A DNA stretch of 45,547 nt from Candidatus Latescibacterota bacterium. Lineage in GTDB: Bacteria; JAAXHH01. Where the stretch lies: NCBI GenBank assembly GCA_022823465.1, contig JAJEHX010000047.1, positions 1 to 45,547 on the forward strand. The letters are read 5' to 3'. The number at the start of each line of letters is the position of its first letter. Position 1 is the first letter of the stretch. The notes beneath the pieces were generated by a model. That model worked only from the letters and a program-made list of their open reading frames with translations. It was not told the origin of the DNA and searched no databases. Shown piece by piece: positions 3,641 to 11,464 of this stretch. The translations under genes and the position numbers were made by a program.

Positions 3641-3883
3641 ATGACCGTTTCCGTCAAGCTCTTTGCCACCCTGAGAAAATACCTGCCCGAGAACGCGGTC
3701 AACAAAACGGCGACGCTCGAGTTCGGCGATCAGGCCACGGCGAGCGACATCATCGCGCAGTTGGAAATCCCCGATGGCCACATACACCTGATCCTGATCG
3801 ACGGTAAACATTCGTCCGAGGATACTCCCCTAACCGATGGCGCGGTGGTCAGTTTCTTTCCACCGATTGCCGGCGGCGCTTAG
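3641..3883 (+). CDS. MoaD/ThiS-family sulfur-carrier protein
   Basis: An 80-residue beta-grasp (ubiquitin-like) protein. MTVSVKLFATLRKYLP is the canonical MoaD start, and GAVVSFFPPIAGGA matches the family's D.V.ifPPvAGG end. MoaD and ThiS carry sulfur as a C-terminal thiocarboxylate on Gly-Gly; here the di-glycine is residues 78-79 and one alanine follows. Unless trimmed, that alanine would block adenylation. The ATG has AGAGAGGA upstream at good distance. It is followed after 5 bases by an unrecognised 97-residue gene and then the OmpA-family gene, a likely operon. No moaE, thiG or E1-like activator is nearby, so molybdopterin, tungsten-cofactor or another sulfur-transfer role cannot be chosen. 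Confidence 0.85.
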   Translation: MTVSVKLFATLRKYLPENAVNKTATLEFGDQATASDIIAQLEIPDGHIHLILIDGKHSSEDTPLTDGAVVSFFPPIAGGA

Positions 3884-3888
3884 GCCCG

Positions 3889-4182
3889 GTGTCACAACAC
3901 ACCTATTACGGATTCAAGCTGGACGACGCCGTCCGGGGATTGAAACGGGCGCTGCGGGATGAGCGTATACCTGTCGTGTCGGTCCGCGAGGACGAAAGCA
4001 AGGTGGTCTTCGCGGTACAGGTCGCATCCGAAACAGGGGAGATCAGCCTGGCCTACCATACCACGACGACACATCCCCTGGCCCGGCTGGGTGACATCCC
4101 CGCGATCGATGTCACGGTCGACGATCATCTGCCCGATGTCAAACCCGTGCTGACCATGGCGTTCTTGAGAGGTGGAGGATAA
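3889..4182 (+). CDS. Uncharacterised 97-residue protein paired with the MoaD-like gene
   Basis: GTG start, 97 residues, soluble, no signal peptide. It reads as an alternating alpha/beta small protein: FKLDDAVRGLKRALRDERIPVVSV, then strand-rich KVVFAVQVASETGEISLAYH, ending in VLTMAFLRGGG. I do not recognise the family. It begins 5 bases after the MoaD-like stop and its last codons (GGT GGA GGA) double as the Shine-Dalgarno of the following OmpA-family gene, so all three are translationally linked. The triple-glycine end resembles a sulfur-carrier terminus but is better explained by that ribosome-binding site. Codon composition matches its neighbours. Confidence 0.7.
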   Translation: MSQHTYYGFKLDDAVRGLKRALRDERIPVVSVREDESKVVFAVQVASETGEISLAYHTTTTHPLARLGDIPAIDVTVDDHLPDVKPVLTMAFLRGGG

Positions 4183-6535: not shown

Positions 6536-7440
6536 TGAAGCCCCTCGTCGAGTGCGTGCCCAATTTCAGCGAAGGGCGCGATACGGGCATCGTGGAGGCC
6601 ATAGCCGCCAGCGTCGCCGCCACCGATGGCGTCCACCTGGCCGGCATGGAAATGGACGGTGATCACAACCGCTCCGTGGTCACCTTCATGGGCTCGCCCG
6701 AAGACGTCGCCAGGGGTGCCTTCGAAGCCTGCAGGACGGCCCGGGACCTGATCGACCTGAGACGCCACCGCGGCGTACATCCGCGGATCGGCGCCACGGA
6801 CGTCATCCCCTTCATTCCCCTTACCGACTACAGCTTTGCCGACTGCGTCTCCCTCGCCCGGATCTGCGGCGGCGAGATCGGGCGGTCTCTCGAGATCCCC
6901 GTGTATTTCTACGGACAGGCCGCCATGAGTGCGCGGCGCGTTGAGCTTCCGGAGATACGCCGGGGTGGATTCGAGGACCTGGTGAAGGAGGTCCGACAGG
7001 AACCCGGGCGAAGGCCCGATGCCGGTCCGGACGCGGTCCACGTTTCCGCCGGCGCCACGGCGGTAGGCGTCCGTGATATCCTCGTCGCGTACAACGTGAA
7101 CCTGGACACCGACGACGTACGCGTCGCCCGGGCGATCGCCCGGAACATCCGGGAAAGAAACGGCGGCCTGCCCGGCGTCCGAGCGCTTGGGCTGTTGCTG
7201 CCTGGACGGCACATCGCCCAGGTCTCCATGAATCTGACCGACTACCGCAAGACCGACATGGTCCAGGCTTTCCAAGCGGTCACGCGCCTCGCGGAAGCCG
7301 AAGGCGCCGGGATACTTGAGAGCGAACTGGTCGGCCTCGCTCCCCGCGAGGCCATGGGCGGGGCGGGACCCGAAGATCTGCGCATGGCCCCCCTGGATCC
7401 CGCCCGGTTCCTGGACTACCATATCCGGCTTTTCGCCTGA
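6535..7440 (+). CDS. ftcD: Glutamate formimidoyltransferase
   Basis: A 301-residue protein matching the formimidoyltransferase part of FtcD, which transfers the formimino group of N-formiminoglutamate to tetrahydrofolate in histidine breakdown. The start LVECVPNFSEGRD is diagnostic. HNRSVVTFMGSPEDV, then RRHRGVHPRIGATDVIPFIPL with the catalytic-region histidine, and VPVYFYG-like IPVYFYGQAA follow. The C-terminal half has NVNLDTDDVRVARAIARNIRERNGG and VSMNLTDYRKT. The cyclodeaminase domain of the bifunctional mammalian enzyme is absent, as usual in bacteria. No other hut gene is close; the one-base overlap with the RraA-like gene suggests joint expression with that aldolase. Confidence 0.93.
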   Translation: MKPLVECVPNFSEGRDTGIVEAIAASVAATDGVHLAGMEMDGDHNRSVVTFMGSPEDVARGAFEACRTARDLIDLRRHRGVHPRIGATDVIPFIPLTDYSFADCVSLARICGGEIGRSLEIPVYFYGQAAMSARRVELPEIRRGGFEDLVKEVRQEPGRRPDAGPDAVHVSAGATAVGVRDILVAYNVNLDTDDVRVARAIARNIRERNGGLPGVRALGLLLPGRHIAQVSMNLTDYRKTDMVQAFQAVTRLAEAEGAGILESELVGLAPREAMGGAGPEDLRMAPLDPARFLDYHIRLFA

Positions 7441-7527: not shown

Positions 7528-7556
7528 TTGACTCTGTGCCCCCCTCTTCATATCAT
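7528..7556 (+). promoter_or_regulatory. Sigma-70-type promoter of the Rrf2-cysteine synthase operon
   Basis: TTGACT (7528-7533), a 17-base spacer and TATCAT (7551-7556) form a strong housekeeping promoter, about 46 bases upstream of the Rrf2 start codon. Transcription would begin near 7563, inside the palindrome at 7557-7575. Confidence 0.7.
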
Positions 7557-7575
7557 GTTGACTAAATTAGTAAAC
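7557..7575. promoter_or_regulatory. Candidate Rrf2 operator
   Basis: GTTGACTAAATTAGTAAAC is an inverted repeat with 9-bp arms around a central A and one mismatch pair (8 of 9 symmetric). It abuts the -10 hexamer and covers the expected transcription start, the ideal place for repression. AT-rich dyads of this size are typical of Rrf2-family sites, so autoregulation by the adjacent regulator is likely. Confidence 0.6.
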
Positions 7576-7601: not shown

Positions 7602-8042
7602 ATGCGGGTTTCAGCCAAGGCGGAGTACGCGTGCAGGGCGGTACTGGAGTTGACGCGCTACCACGACAAGGCGGAAGTCATCCATATCAGCGACATCGCG
7701 GTAAGACAGTCCATTCCCGAAAAATACCTCGTACAGATCCTCCTGCAGTTGCAGCGCGCCGGCCTGGTCCGGAGCAAGCGCGGAGCGACCGGGGGCTATT
7801 CGCTCGCCAGGGCTCCGGGCGATATCTCGCTGGGCGACGTGATCCGGGCCATGGACGGCGCCCTGATCTCCGTCGAAAGCCTGTCCGGAGACGCTGAAAT
7901 GTCGGATCAGTTGAGCGGCCAGCACGTATTGAAGGACGTTTGGATGGGCGTGCAGGAACAGCTCGGCGAGATCATGGACGGCATCACATTCGAAGATATC
8001 TCCAGGCAGGCGCAGAAGAGCCTGTCCATGTACTACATCTGA
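7602..8042 (+). CDS. Rrf2-family transcriptional regulator (CymR-like)
   Basis: A 146-residue winged-helix regulator. MRVSAKAEYACRAVLELTRYH is the standard Rrf2 start, and the helix-turn-helix and wing are IHISDIAVRQSIPEKYLVQI and GLVRSKRGATGGYSLAR. The three clustered cysteines that hold a [2Fe-2S] cluster in IscR are missing; the only cysteine is near residue 12. It is therefore more like CymR, the cysteine-metabolism repressor of Firmicutes, which is controlled through contact with cysteine synthase. The next gene here is a cysteine synthase whose Shine-Dalgarno overlaps this stop codon, which supports that reading. ATG at 7602 has AGGGAG upstream. Confidence 0.88.
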   Translation: MRVSAKAEYACRAVLELTRYHDKAEVIHISDIAVRQSIPEKYLVQILLQLQRAGLVRSKRGATGGYSLARAPGDISLGDVIRAMDGALISVESLSGDAEMSDQLSGQHVLKDVWMGVQEQLGEIMDGITFEDISRQAQKSLSMYYI

Positions 8043-8052
8043 AGGATTGCCC

Positions 8053-9000
8053 GTGGCCTCCGGGAACGGAATATACGACAGCGCGCTCGACCTGATCGGC
8101 AACACCCCCCTGGTTCGCCTGAACCGGATCAATCAGGTCCCGGGGGTCGACCTGCTCGCCAAGCTCGAATCGGACAACCCCGGCGGCAGCGTAAAGGACC
8201 GCGTCGGCCTGAGCATGATCCTGGACGCGGAGCAGCGGGGCCTGCTCGAACCGGGCGGCACCATCGTGGAGCCGACAAGCGGCAACACGGGGCTCGGCCT
8301 GAGCATGGTGGCCTCGGTGCGGGGCTACAAGGTCATCCTCGTGATGCCGGACAACATGAGTTCGGAGCGGCGCGTGCTGCTGACCTCCTACGGCGCGGAG
8401 CTGGTGCTGACGCCCGGCATGCTGGGCATGGCCGGCGCCGTGCAGAAGGCGGAGGAGATACTCGCCGAACATCCGGACTACTTCATGCCCCAGCAGTTCA
8501 AGAACCCCGCCAACGTGGATATACACCGGAAGACCACGGCCGCGGAGATCTGGGAAGCGACGGAAGGAAAAATCGACGCCTTCGTGGCCGCCGTGGGCAC
8601 CGGGGGCACGCTGACGGGCGTGGGGCAATACCTGAAGGAGAAGGACGAGCGCATTCGCGTGATCGCGGTGGAACCCTCGTTGTCCCCCGTTATATCGGGC
8701 AAACCCGTGGAGAGCCTGGTGCACGCCATCCAGGGCATCGGCGCCGGGTTCATTCCCGATATCCTGGACAGGTCGATCATTGATGAAGTGATGCTGGTAG
8801 ATGATGAGGACGCCTACCAGACGGCGCGCAGCCTGGGCCTGGAGGAAGGGCTCCTGGTGGGCATTTCGGCGGGCGCCAACGTATGCGCGAGCATGCGGGT
8901 CGCCGAGAGCATGGAAGAAGGCAGGATCGTGACCATCCTGTGCGATACCGGAGAAAGGTACCTGAGCATTCGGGAGTATTTCGAAGGACAGAGCGACTAA
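8053..9000 (+). CDS. cysK: Cysteine synthase (O-acetylserine or O-phosphoserine sulfhydrylase)
   Basis: A 315-residue PLP enzyme of fold type II making cysteine. [20 protein letters not shown] opens the protein; the PLP lysine lies in GGSVKDR, the substrate loop in EPTSGNTG, the phosphate-binding loop in [11 protein letters not shown], and GISAGAN closes the site. The GTG at 8053 is chosen over an in-frame TTG at 8047 because AAGGA (8042-8046) leaves 6 bases to GTG and none to TTG. It is followed after 16 bases by a CysO-like sulfur carrier, as in the mycobacterial cysO-cysM pair, so the sulfur donor may be a protein thiocarboxylate rather than free sulfide. CysK and CysM cannot be separated with certainty. 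Confidence 0.92.
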
Positions 9001-9016: not shown

Positions 9017-9370
9017 ATGGCCGTTACCGTTCGCATTCCAACCCCGCTGCGCAAGTTGACCGCCAACCAGTCCGAAATCGAAATAGACGGCGAAACCGTC
9101 GAATCGCTGATCGGAAACATGGAGGCGTCCTACCCCGGAATCAAGGATCGTATCTGCGACGAGTCCGGTAAAGTGCGGCGGTTTATCAACATCTACATCA
9201 ACGAAGAAGATATCCGGTTTCTGGACGGTACGGACACCGCGGTGAAGGCGGGAGACCGGATTTCCATCGTTCCTGCCATCGCGGGCGGCCTGGTCGATCC
9301 GGGTGGGCCGGGCTGTCAAGATGGTCCGGGTGTTCTGGGCGGTCCGGGCGGCCCGCGGGACAGCGGCTGA
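9017..9370 (+). CDS. CysO/MoaD-like sulfur carrier with a C-terminal extension
   Basis: A 117-residue protein. Residues 1-91 are a complete beta-grasp sulfur carrier ([20 protein letters not shown] ... [12 protein letters not shown]) with Gly-Gly at 90-91, close to CysO length. A further 26 residues follow, rich in Gly and Pro with one Cys ([18 protein letters not shown], then PGGPRDSG). A carrier must end in Gly-Gly to be thiocarboxylated, so this tail would need removal, as the JAMM protease Mec+ does for CysO adducts; no such protease is in the window. ATG has GAGGAGG upstream. The stop overlaps the thrB ATG. The tail DNA is internally repetitive (GGTCCGGG words), suggesting growth by tandem duplication. 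Confidence 0.85.
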
Positions 9371-10275
9371 TGTCCTCCGTGCGGGTGCGCGTACCCGCGA
9401 CCACCGGTAACCTGGGCTCCGGCTACGACTGCGCCGGCATGGCCCTCGGCCTCCATAACACCATCGAGTTTTCCGAAACGGACTCCGGCCTGGAAGTGGC
9501 CGTTGAGGGCGAAGGCGCCGACGCGGTACCTCTCGATGAAAGCAACCTGTGCATTGTCTCCGCCCGGTCCATATTTGACGCGGTGAACTGGCAGCCCGCC
9601 GGCCTTAAGGCGTGCATGCACCACACTATTCCGGTATCTCGGGGCCTCGGCAGCAGCGGAGTCGCCATCGTGGCGGGCGCCGTGGCGGCCAATGCACTCG
9701 CTGGACAGCCGCTCGGCACGCCAGAACTGCTCCGGATCTGCTCCGACCTGGAAGGCCATCCCGACAACGTCGTTCCGTCCCTTCTCGGCGGGCTCTCCGT
9801 TAGCGGCGAGCGGGCGGGAACGATCGTGTACCAGACCTTCTCCGTACCCGCCGACCTCCAGGCCGTCGTGGCTATTCCCGAAATCACCCTCGATACGAAA
9901 GTCGCCCGCGGCGTCCTGCCGGAATCGGTATCCATGGAGGACGCGGTCTACAATCTGTGCAGCGTGGGGCTGCTCATAGGCGGTATGATGACGGGGGATT
10001 ACGCCTTGCTCCGGGAGGGCATGGCCGATCGCCTCCACCAGCCCTACCGGCAGCACCTGGTGCCCGGGCTCGCCGAGGTCATCTCGGATGCCCTGGAGGC
10101 CGGCGCCCACGGCGCGGCCCTCAGCGGCGCCGGTCCGACCGCCATCGCATTAGCCACGGAAAACCACGCAGAGATCGGGAAAGCCATGGTCGATGCTTTC
10201 TCACGGAACGGCGTGTCCGGACAATACCGGATCCTCCCGATAGACAACGAGGGATGCCAGGTCCTGCAGGACTGA
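9370..10275 (+). CDS. thrB: Homoserine kinase
   Basis: A 301-residue GHMP kinase that phosphorylates homoserine for threonine synthesis. The start VRVPATTGNLGSGYDCAGMA is the ThrB version of the family's N-terminal motif. IPVSRGLGSSGVAIVAGAVAA is the ATP-binding GHMP loop, LEGHPDNVVPSLLGGL follows, and ALSGAGPTAIAL is the C-terminal motif. The ATG overlaps the stop of the CysO-like gene by one base (TGATG) with no clear Shine-Dalgarno, so translation is probably coupled. Its place after cysteine synthase links sulfur and aspartate-family amino-acid synthesis. No thrA or thrC is in the window. Confidence 0.92.
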   Translation: MSSVRVRVPATTGNLGSGYDCAGMALGLHNTIEFSETDSGLEVAVEGEGADAVPLDESNLCIVSARSIFDAVNWQPAGLKACMHHTIPVSRGLGSSGVAIVAGAVAANALAGQPLGTPELLRICSDLEGHPDNVVPSLLGGLSVSGERAGTIVYQTFSVPADLQAVVAIPEITLDTKVARGVLPESVSMEDAVYNLCSVGLLIGGMMTGDYALLREGMADRLHQPYRQHLVPGLAEVISDALEAGAHGAALSGAGPTAIALATENHAEIGKAMVDAFSRNGVSGQYRILPIDNEGCQVLQD

Positions 10276-10279
10276 GCCC

Positions 10280-11464
10280 ATGGGCGCTCTCACGGACATT
10301 CGCGTCATCGACCTGACCCGGGTACTCGCGGGTCCCTTCACGACTATGACCCTGGGCGATCTGGGCGCCGAGGTCATCAAGGTCGAACCCTTCGGCGGGG
10401 ACGAGGCGCGGGGATTCGGCCCCTTCAAGGAGGGCGTGAGCGGCTACTTCGAGAACGTCAACCGGGGTAAGCAGAGCATCGCCATCGACCTTAAGCATCC
10501 CACAGGCCGTGAATTGCTCCTCGAATTGATCGGGAAGTCGGACGTGCTGGTGGAGAACTTCAGGCCGGGCGTTATGAAAAAGCTCGGACTGGATTACGAA
10601 GCTCTGGAGGCCCGTTTCCCGGGACTGATCTACGCGGCCTGTTCCGGGTTCGGGCAGACCGGACCCTATGCCCGGCGCGGGGCCTACGACATGATCATCC
10701 AGGGCATGGGCGGCATCGTCAGCATTACCGGCGAACCGGACCGCCCGCCCGTCCGGGTGGGCGTTTCCATTGGGGACATTGCCGCGGCCCTATACTCCTG
10801 TATCGGCATACTCACGGCACTGATCACCCGGACGCAGACAGGTAAGGGGCAGATGGTGGATATCGGCATGATGGACTGCCAGGTCGCTCTCCTCGAAAAC
10901 GCCATTGCCCGGTACGACATGACGGGCAGCGTCCCGGAACCACTCGGGGCCAGGCATCCGTCCATCACGCCCTTTCAGGCCGTCGAGACGCGGGACGGAT
11001 GGATCATGATCGCAGCGGGGAACAATGTGCTTTGGCGCCGGCTCTGCGAATTGATGGAAAGAGAATACCTGGTCGACGACGCGCGATTCAGGGACAACAA
11101 CCTGCGCACCGAAAACCACGCCGAATTGCACGCGATATTAAGCGACGTCTTCAGGGTAAGTACAACGGAAGACTGGCTGCGGCGGCTGGATGCGGCCGAG
11201 ATCCCCTGCGGCCCCATCCAGGATGTTAAACAGGTCGTGGAAGATCCCCAGGTCTTGGCTCGCGATATGATCGTAAAGCTCCTGCACCCCATCGCCGGTC
11301 CTCTCCGCGTGGCCGGCTCGCCCCTCAAGCTCTCCGACACCCCGCCCGAAATCACCCGGCATGCCCCCGCCCTGGGCGAACACACCGACCAGGTCCTTCA
11401 GACGCTTCTTGAAGCGTCTTCGGACGACCTGACAGGCTGGCGGGAATCGGGTGTGATACGGTAA
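10280..11464 (+). CDS. Class III CoA-transferase (CaiB/BaiF family)
   Basis: A 394-residue family III CoA-transferase, which moves CoA between acyl groups through an aspartyl-CoA intermediate. ALTDIRVIDLTRVLAGPFTT, LGDLGAEVIKVE, SDVLVENFRPGVMKKLGLDY and the catalytic-Asp motif GAYDMIIQGMGG (Asp137) are all present, followed by TGKGQMVDIGMMD. Family members act on carnitine, formyl/oxalyl, bile acid or succinyl substrates, and this one cannot be assigned. It starts 4 bases after thrB. A perfect 9-bp palindrome lies inside its 3-prime end (11400-11419). Confidence 0.92.
   Translation: MGALTDIRVIDLTRVLAGPFTTMTLGDLGAEVIKVEPFGGDEARGFGPFKEGVSGYFENVNRGKQSIAIDLKHPTGRELLLELIGKSDVLVENFRPGVMKKLGLDYEALEARFPGLIYAACSGFGQTGPYARRGAYDMIIQGMGGIVSITGEPDRPPVRVGVSIGDIAAALYSCIGILTALITRTQTGKGQMVDIGMMDCQVALLENAIARYDMTGSVPEPLGARHPSITPFQAVETRDGWIMIAAGNNVLWRRLCELMEREYLVDDARFRDNNLRTENHAELHAILSDVFRVSTTEDWLRRLDAAEIPCGPIQDVKQVVEDPQVLARDMIVKLLHPIAGPLRVAGSPLKLSDTPPEITRHAPALGEHTDQVLQTLLEASSDDLTGWRESGVIR
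11400..11419. other. Perfect palindrome near the 3-prime end of the CoA-transferase gene
   Basis: AGACGCTTC-TT-GAAGCGTCT: 9-bp arms that can form a strong RNA hairpin 45 bases before the stop codon. It is followed by only a few T residues, so it is not a standard intrinsic terminator, but it could stabilise or attenuate the operon transcript. Confidence 0.4.

Follow-up and report, generated by a model that had tools for sequence, protein, structure and literature searches.

The rrf2-cysK operon and its promoter

The window, the whole stretch of 45,547 nucleotides analysed here, is contig C10 of a 3.86-Mb genome of a Candidatus Latescibacterota bacterium (GCA_022823465.1). Between ftcD, which ends at position 7440, and rrf2, which starts at position 7602, it carries a promoter and an adjoining dyad that precede a five-gene operon. 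The features of the locus are as follows.

7528..7533, + strand: -35 hexamer TTGACT (promoter scan; TTGAC at the same spacing in 16/16 genomes)
7551..7556, + strand: -10 hexamer TATCAT, abutting the dyad (TATNAT directly before the dyad in 16/16 genomes)
7557..7575, no strand assigned: operator-like 19-bp dyad GTTGACTAAATTAGTAAAC (sequence and conservation)
7602..8042, + strand: rrf2, cluster-less Rrf2-family regulator, CymR-like, 146 aa (TIGR00738, 114.7 bits, cut-off 73.3)
8028..8039, + strand: codons M143-Y-Y-I146 of the C-terminal tail (terminal Ile conserved; residues 142-146 with pLDDT <50)
8047..9000, + strand: cysK, cysteine synthase A (TIGR01139, 432.1 bits, cut-off 350.95)
9017..9370, + strand: CysO/SAMP-like ThiS/MoaD sulfur carrier (PF02597, 60 bits; PDB match 3dwg_C)
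9370..10275, + strand: thrB, homoserine kinase (TIGR00191, 260.8 bits, cut-off 168.25)
10280..11464, + strand: family III CoA-transferase (PF02515, 458.3 bits)

The start of cysK is either TTG 8047 or the in-frame GTG 8053. Gaps within the operon are short, and thrB overlaps the stop of the carrier gene. The CoA-transferase had no NCBIfam equivalog above its cut-off. An earlier note, made from the letters alone, had described a strong promoter directly followed by a 19-bp dyad, a first gene for a cluster-less Rrf2 regulator, a cysteine synthase gene next to it, and an extension to a CysO-like carrier, thrB and a CoA-transferase; sequence and profile matches bear out this arrangement, and the gene order is kept across the phylum. 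rrf2 and cysK are adjacent in 16/16 genomes, the carrier and thrB come next in all 15 contigs that reach them, and the CoA-transferase gene follows in all 14 that are long enough. In G015, the operon continues unbroken to the end of the contig, and no ftcD match was found within the 5.1 kb taken upstream of it. Apart from a shared amino-acid supply, we have no good reason to offer for the presence of thrB and the CoA-transferase gene in a cysteine operon.

The synthase is of the CysK type, as it scores above the CysK equivalog cut-off and misses that of CysM (315.4 bits against 394.2). The best PDB match of the carrier is a chain from M. tuberculosis, 3dwg_C (E 6.9e-24), which we take to be CysO, the record itself reading culture filtrate antigen cfp10A. 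The carrier just missed the SAMP1 model (58.3 bits, cut-off 60) and passed moaD_arch (51 bits, cut-off 49.5). Its diglycine lies at residues 90-91 and is followed by a 26-aa tail that would need to be removed, for example by a JAMM protease, for thiocarboxylate chemistry. This Gly/Pro-rich tail (9290-9367) varies in length from 11 to 56 residues among the 12 same-genus genomes and measures 1-10 residues in three other genera. A JAMM protease (PF14464) is encoded in 15/16 genomes, G014 being the exception, and a rhodanese-ThiF protein (E1) is present in G000, the one genome in which E1 was sought; both are unlinked to the operon. G000 also contains a 758-aa open frame with ThiF (E1) and JAB matches (C41:45889-46962; L112, L168), separate from the rhodanese-E1. 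Elsewhere in the window, a second MoaD/ThiS-like gene is followed by one whose 97-aa product matches nothing in Pfam or NCBIfam (3641-4182), an order that recurs in 11 of the 15 loci taken from relatives.

The two promoter hexamers are separated by a 17-bp spacer and together agree with the consensus at 10 of 12 positions, which makes them the better of two promoter-like matches between 7000 and 12400; the scan alone is weak because shuffled sequences average 1.6 matches. The position of the presumed transcription start is taken from the -10 hexamer. In the dyad, 8 of 9 arm pairs are complementary. Of 5000 dinucleotide-shuffled versions of the 161-bp intergenic region, 33 also reached at least 8 of 9 pairs, so that the near-palindrome by itself is only moderately unlikely, and its conservation was tested for this reason; an inverted-repeat search of the region listed no inverted repeat. 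Both this frequency among shuffles and the position of the dyad against the -10 hexamer would also suit a conserved palindrome that acts as a promoter or mRNA leader element and binds no protein.

Conservation of the dyad and its further sites

The relatives compared are Latescibacterota metagenome-assembled genomes, some of which were deposited under other labels such as Gemmatimonadetes. All 16 phylum genomes examined (five genera) contain an rrf2 ortholog, and in each of them rrf2 is preceded by TTGAC, a spacer of equal length, TATNAT and then at once the dyad. Absence of the dyad upstream of orthologous operons, which the earlier note had named as the observation that would refute its proposal, was thus looked for and found in none of the 16. 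All 12 genomes from the window's genus have the identical dyad GTTGACTAAATTAGTAAAC; in the four other genera it reads GTTGACCAAGTTGGTCAAC, GTTTACCAATTTAGTAAAC, GTTGACCAAATTGATCAAC and GTTGACTAAAATGGTCAAC, with 9, 8, 8 and 7 of 9 arm pairs complementary, respectively. At some pairs both arms vary, the fourth being G-C or T-A and the seventh T-A or C-G. Between the window and the four other genera, identity is 0.79-0.84 within the dyad, compared to 0.18-0.31 in the upstream flank, 0.24-0.35 in the spacer and 0.08-0.25 downstream. Since 12 of the 16 genomes belong to one genus with an identical dyad, the independent sample amounts to about five lineages. Furthermore, the first dyad pattern was written from 12 of these sites, with G005, G009, G011 and G014 as independent matches.

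We searched the 16 genomes with this first pattern at up to two mismatches, and all of the 20 further places that it returned were fetched. Forward matches numbered 32, of which 16 are the rrf2 sites, and a reversed control pattern gave 14; the 16 extra matches are thus not above chance in number, and only their placement speaks. Four of the 20 places lie at a sulfite reductase gene (G012, G013 and G015) or at a siroheme synthase-methyltransferase-sulfite reductase operon (G001), and domains of these kinds were seen in G011, G013 and G001. The chance expectation for the four places is 0.0015 with a 300-bp target per genome, an estimate for which sulfur genes had been named beforehand and the exact gene was chosen post hoc. 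The other 16 places fall inside ORFs or in gaps without recognised flanking sulfur genes, as read by eye from the first residues, with one flank checked by Pfam.

A refined 17-base pattern was then applied at up to one mismatch to the 12 same-genus genomes. Matches found in more than one genome were solely those at the rrf2 and sulfite reductase promoters; the eight others were each single and of eight different sequences. The sulfite reductase site matched exactly in 11 of the 12 genomes and with one mismatch in the window's own genome. The refined pattern was drawn with most of the sulfite reductase sites in view, so that G000, G003 and G010 alone are independent there. With a looser pattern, a dyad is found at the sulfite reductase gene or siroheme operon in 16/16 genomes. 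The search for further dyads before sulfur genes, suggested as a check in the earlier note, thereby yielded one more conserved site. Just two operons have sites in more than one same-genus genome, and a broad regulon is unsupported at the motif used. The dyad thus appears to mark a small sulfur regulon, unlike the wide one known for CymR, which takes in transporters and the route from methionine to cysteine, as judged with a motif at which weaker sites could be missed.

The sulfite reductases downstream of these sites are of two types. Those of G001, G013 and G015 are 77-78% alike and differ in type from those of the window's genus, which are 29-31% identical to that of G013. The dyad is found before both, which suggests that the site follows function. 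The sulfite reductase dyad of the window's genus is weaker, with three mismatches to the first pattern in nine genomes and two in G012. There and in G014, the dyad lies 15-16 bp upstream of TTGAC and is centred near -61 (for example G000:C48:51914-51930, L142). By eye, the dyad directly follows TTGACA-N17-TATATT in G015, begins 19 bp past TTGACA and overlaps the -10 region at the siroheme operon of G001, and is found 13 bp past a possible -10 in G013. Given the centre near -61, upstream of the -35 in two genera, control may be by repression or by activation there. Such a place is more usual for an activator, and a switch from repression to activation across genera is possible.

These sites also bear on the reading of the palindrome as a promoter or leader element without a bound protein. 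Similar dyads precede the unrelated sulfite reductase and siroheme promoters, and two genera have the dyad upstream of the -35, where that promoter would not transcribe it, which together make this explanation highly improbable. We consider instead that a protein, probably the product of the adjacent rrf2 gene, binds the dyad.

The regulator, its terminal isoleucine and CysK

The product of rrf2 belongs to the Rrf2 superfamily (in addition to TIGR00738, PF02082 at 118 bits, cut-off 30). Its score against the curated CymR equivalog NF047409 is 88.9 bits, below the cut-off of 195, above which none of the 16 phylum genomes has a match. In 15 of the 16 rrf2 orthologs, the alignment nevertheless extends to the very end of the NF047409 model, compared to 16 other listed matches in which the alignment ends at position 84-94 (14 matches) or at 125 and 128 (two matches). 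Among the top-ranked structures, the predicted fold is closest to CymR (2y75, Z 17.6) and to IscR of T. potens (4cic, Z 17.4), a tie, so that the fold does not tell CymR from IscR. The top PDB sequence match comes from T. potens and is named IscR in the title of its structure.

The three conserved cluster-binding cysteines that define IscR (Cys3 motif) are missing in 16/16 rrf2 orthologs and kept in 14/14 Rrf2 paralogs. Cys11 is the only cysteine in 12 of the 16 orthologs; the other four have three scattered cysteines without the Cys3 spacing. Fe-S sensing by the operon's Rrf2 is rejected, as the cluster ligands are absent throughout. Cys11 (codon 7632-7634) is found in 16/16 phylum orthologs and in 13 of 14 homologs of the wider set, and might be a thiol sensor. 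The upstream regions of the Fe-S-type paralogs (L019-L032) mostly carry a promoter element of their own, of the form ACTTGACATAAAAGTCAGGTTT.

Binding of the dyad by such an Fe-S-type paralog, or by another factor, would amount to cross-talk to iron-sulfur supply. In its favour, an excerpt of PMC3828012 describes the motifs of IscR and of CymR as similar. The 19-bp dyad, however, precedes the cluster-less rrf2 in 16/16 genomes, whereas an element of the ACTTGACATAAAAGTCAGG type was recognised by eye, with variations, in 13 of the 14 paralog upstream stretches (all except that of L025). In addition, the paralog gene is followed, in both G001 and G013, by a gene that we identify by eye as sufB. 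We thus regard binding by a paralog or other factor as very unlikely, and the Rrf2 protein encoded next to the dyad as its probable ligand.

The Rrf2 chain ends in MYYI in 15 of the 16 phylum orthologs and in MYHI in the remaining one; the tail of B. subtilis CymR reads -FYI. The terminal isoleucine is present in 16/16 phylum orthologs and 14/14 sequences of the aligned wider set (four phyla), and is the only invariant residue past I75 in this 14-homolog alignment, which comprises six sequences from the phylum and eight from outside. Residues 142-146 are predicted to be flexible. Among the 13 paralogs read to their stop, a count that leaves out L027, which runs off its contig, 12 are without a terminal isoleucine; the other, L032 of G014, ends in -DKQI, without aromatic residues. 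The designation CymR-like given in the earlier note holds in part: the mode of the regulator supports it, with a sulfur regulon, no cluster ligands, an adjacent cysK and an isoleucine tail, and membership of the curated CymR family, at 88.9 of 195 bits, does not.

According to published work that includes PMC12895370, CysE and the CdiA toxin are held in CysK by a C-terminal isoleucine, and EGL-9 and CymR have one as well. The window's CysK contains SVKDR, TSGNTG and QQF; the last two motifs, which we matched by eye to residues named in PMC12895370, are kept in 16/16 genomes. CysE, whose assignment falls under its curated cut-off in 16/16 genomes, ends in RTA or HTA in all 15 genomes in which its end is readable (the contig of G012 is too short). 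PMC12895370 also reports that the canonical CysE-CysK complex is absent or non-functional in B. subtilis, and that P. aeruginosa combines a CysE without isoleucine with a CysK that has the tail-binding residues; no such Rrf2 partner is named there for P. aeruginosa. As P. aeruginosa has both traits, a tail-less CysE and kept CysK motifs permit a tail partner and do not prove one.

A candidate sulfur-status switch and its relatives

We propose that the dyad is the operator of the adjacent Rrf2, and that Rrf2 and CysK probably form a CymR-type sulfur-status switch. Under ample cysteine and low O-acetylserine (OAS), the C-terminal isoleucine tail of Rrf2 would sit in the active site of CysK, and the resulting complex would keep the Rrf2 dimer on the dyad just past the -10, where it would block RNA polymerase at the rrf2-cysK-carrier-thrB-CoA-transferase operon. 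Upon shortage of sulfide or cysteine, OAS would accumulate and compete the tail out of CysK, and Rrf2 would leave the dyad. The operon and the sulfite reductase gene would then be expressed, restoring sulfide and cysteine. As the operon would be autoregulated, the regulator and its partner CysK would rise and fall together. We infer each of these elements, namely binding of Rrf2 to the dyad, binding of its tail by CysK, OAS as the signal, and repression, from sequence. In the CymR model, as given in an excerpt of PMC3828012, the CymR-CysK complex represses at low OAS and comes apart at high OAS; the predicted anatomy of the Latescibacterota locus fits this model.

Rrf2 might alternatively bind the dyad and control sulfur genes while sensing OAS, cysteine, or a thiol or persulfide at Cys11 directly, without CysK, its isoleucine tail having another role. 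The conservation of Cys11 is in line with such direct sensing, as is the report, in the part of PMC9338935 consulted, that S. aureus CymR ceases to bind DNA once a surface thiol is oxidised. However, Cys11 lies in helix 1 and does not align with the sole cysteine visible in the portion of S. aureus CymR covered by the alignment, an Omnitrophota homolog (L094) has no cysteine at all yet keeps the terminal isoleucine, and no other residue past I75 is invariant. Direct sensing is thus an unlikely account of the locus, and tethering of Rrf2 to CysK by its tail is the reading that we retain.

Two N-terminal peptide patterns, run against 84,980 species genomes, returned 19 loci, eight of them outside the phylum. 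Neighbours were read for L089, L091, L092, L094, L095 and L096, leaving L090 and L093 aside, and are again sulfur genes where readable. In Poribacteria (L089:65-4265), rrf2 is followed by genes for homocysteine biosynthesis (PF01837), PAPS reductase, a JAMM protease and a ThiS-CysK fusion. A Planctomycete locus (L092) has PAPS reductase and ATP sulfurylase as neighbours, L091 has PAPS reductase, and the Omnitrophota locus L094 has cysK together with a PLP enzyme of Cys/Met metabolism. In Singulisphaera (L095), a Cys/Met gene and a gene for a cysK-like protein that includes a CBS domain are located 2-4.6 kb off; in L096, a cysK-like match is located 2-3 kb off. A dyad of the Latescibacterota motif was not seen at the eight loci outside the phylum. 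At the Poribacteria locus, a single exact half-site, TTAGTAAAC, occurs within 85 bases, which does not suffice for a claim, and L091 has a palindrome with 8 of 9 pairs, but of another, repetitive sequence. No relative was found in viral contigs, and searches of the open-licence PMC literature listed no title about a regulator of this kind from these phyla.

More speculatively, Ile-tailed, cluster-less, CysK-tethered Rrf2 proteins could form a class that spans at least Latescibacterota, Poribacteria, Planctomycetota and Omnitrophota, with CymR of Firmicutes as one branch. The CysK docking site freed by a tail-less CysE would be used in this class for gene control, sometimes together with thiocarboxylate cysteine synthesis, and in Latescibacterota the operator would have shifted away from the start site, to around -61 at the sulfite reductase gene, turning repression into activation. 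We put this forward as a tentative idea that is somewhat doubtful as a whole.

The CymR-CysK partnership has been described from Gram-positives, and its counterpart in uncultured phyla is predicted here from sequence alone, in terms of a specific residue, the last isoleucine, and a specific operator. If true, a Gram-positive mechanism would extend to other branches of life. Latescibacterota are known from sponges (part of PMC12993501). The prediction yields a search rule for sulfur-sensing Rrf2 proteins (no cluster cysteines, a terminal isoleucine and a sulfur gene as neighbour) and connects this form of control with cysteine synthesis on a carrier protein. The case is a comparative one, and of its new lines of evidence the conserved terminal isoleucine and the sulfite reductase sites are the strongest. 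The locus would represent a solid extension of a known mechanism and not a new kind of system.

As in CymR-CysK of B. subtilis and S. aureus, an Rrf2 fold without an Fe-S cluster is combined here with a C-terminal isoleucine tail and with cysteine-synthesis genes, and the adjacency of rrf2 and cysK recalls Clostridium acetobutylicum, where cymR lies next to cysK (PMC3828012, in part). The tail-less CysE likewise has a parallel in the absent or non-functional CysE-CysK complex of B. subtilis (PMC12895370, in part). In contrast to CymR, the regulator scores less than half the curated CymR cut-off and comes from another phylum, with an OmpA-family gene nearby; its operon adds a sulfur carrier, thrB and a CoA-transferase gene, and, with the motif applied, only two target operons carry a site in more than one genome of the genus. 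Furthermore, the dyad stands at the regulator's own promoter, whereas expression of cymR in B. cereus is constitutive according to a portion of PMC3519770. With IscR and SUF-type Rrf2 proteins, the regulator has the fold and the winged-helix region in common, but it is devoid of cluster ligands, and its neighbours are cysteine genes instead of Fe-S assembly genes. Finally, the placement of a ThiS/MoaD carrier beside a cysteine synthase is shared with CysO-CysM-Mec, the protein-thiocarboxylate cysteine pathway of M. tuberculosis, and with the operons of ThiS, JAB and cysteine synthase genes described by Iyer et al. in 2006 (PMC1779556, in part). A JAMM protease and a rhodanese-E1 in the genome add to this resemblance, although these are encoded on other contigs here and the synthase is of the CysK and not the CysM type. 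The Latescibacterota operon also differs in being headed by an Rrf2 regulator, a term absent from the main text of Iyer et al., and in being extended by thrB and a CoA-transferase gene.
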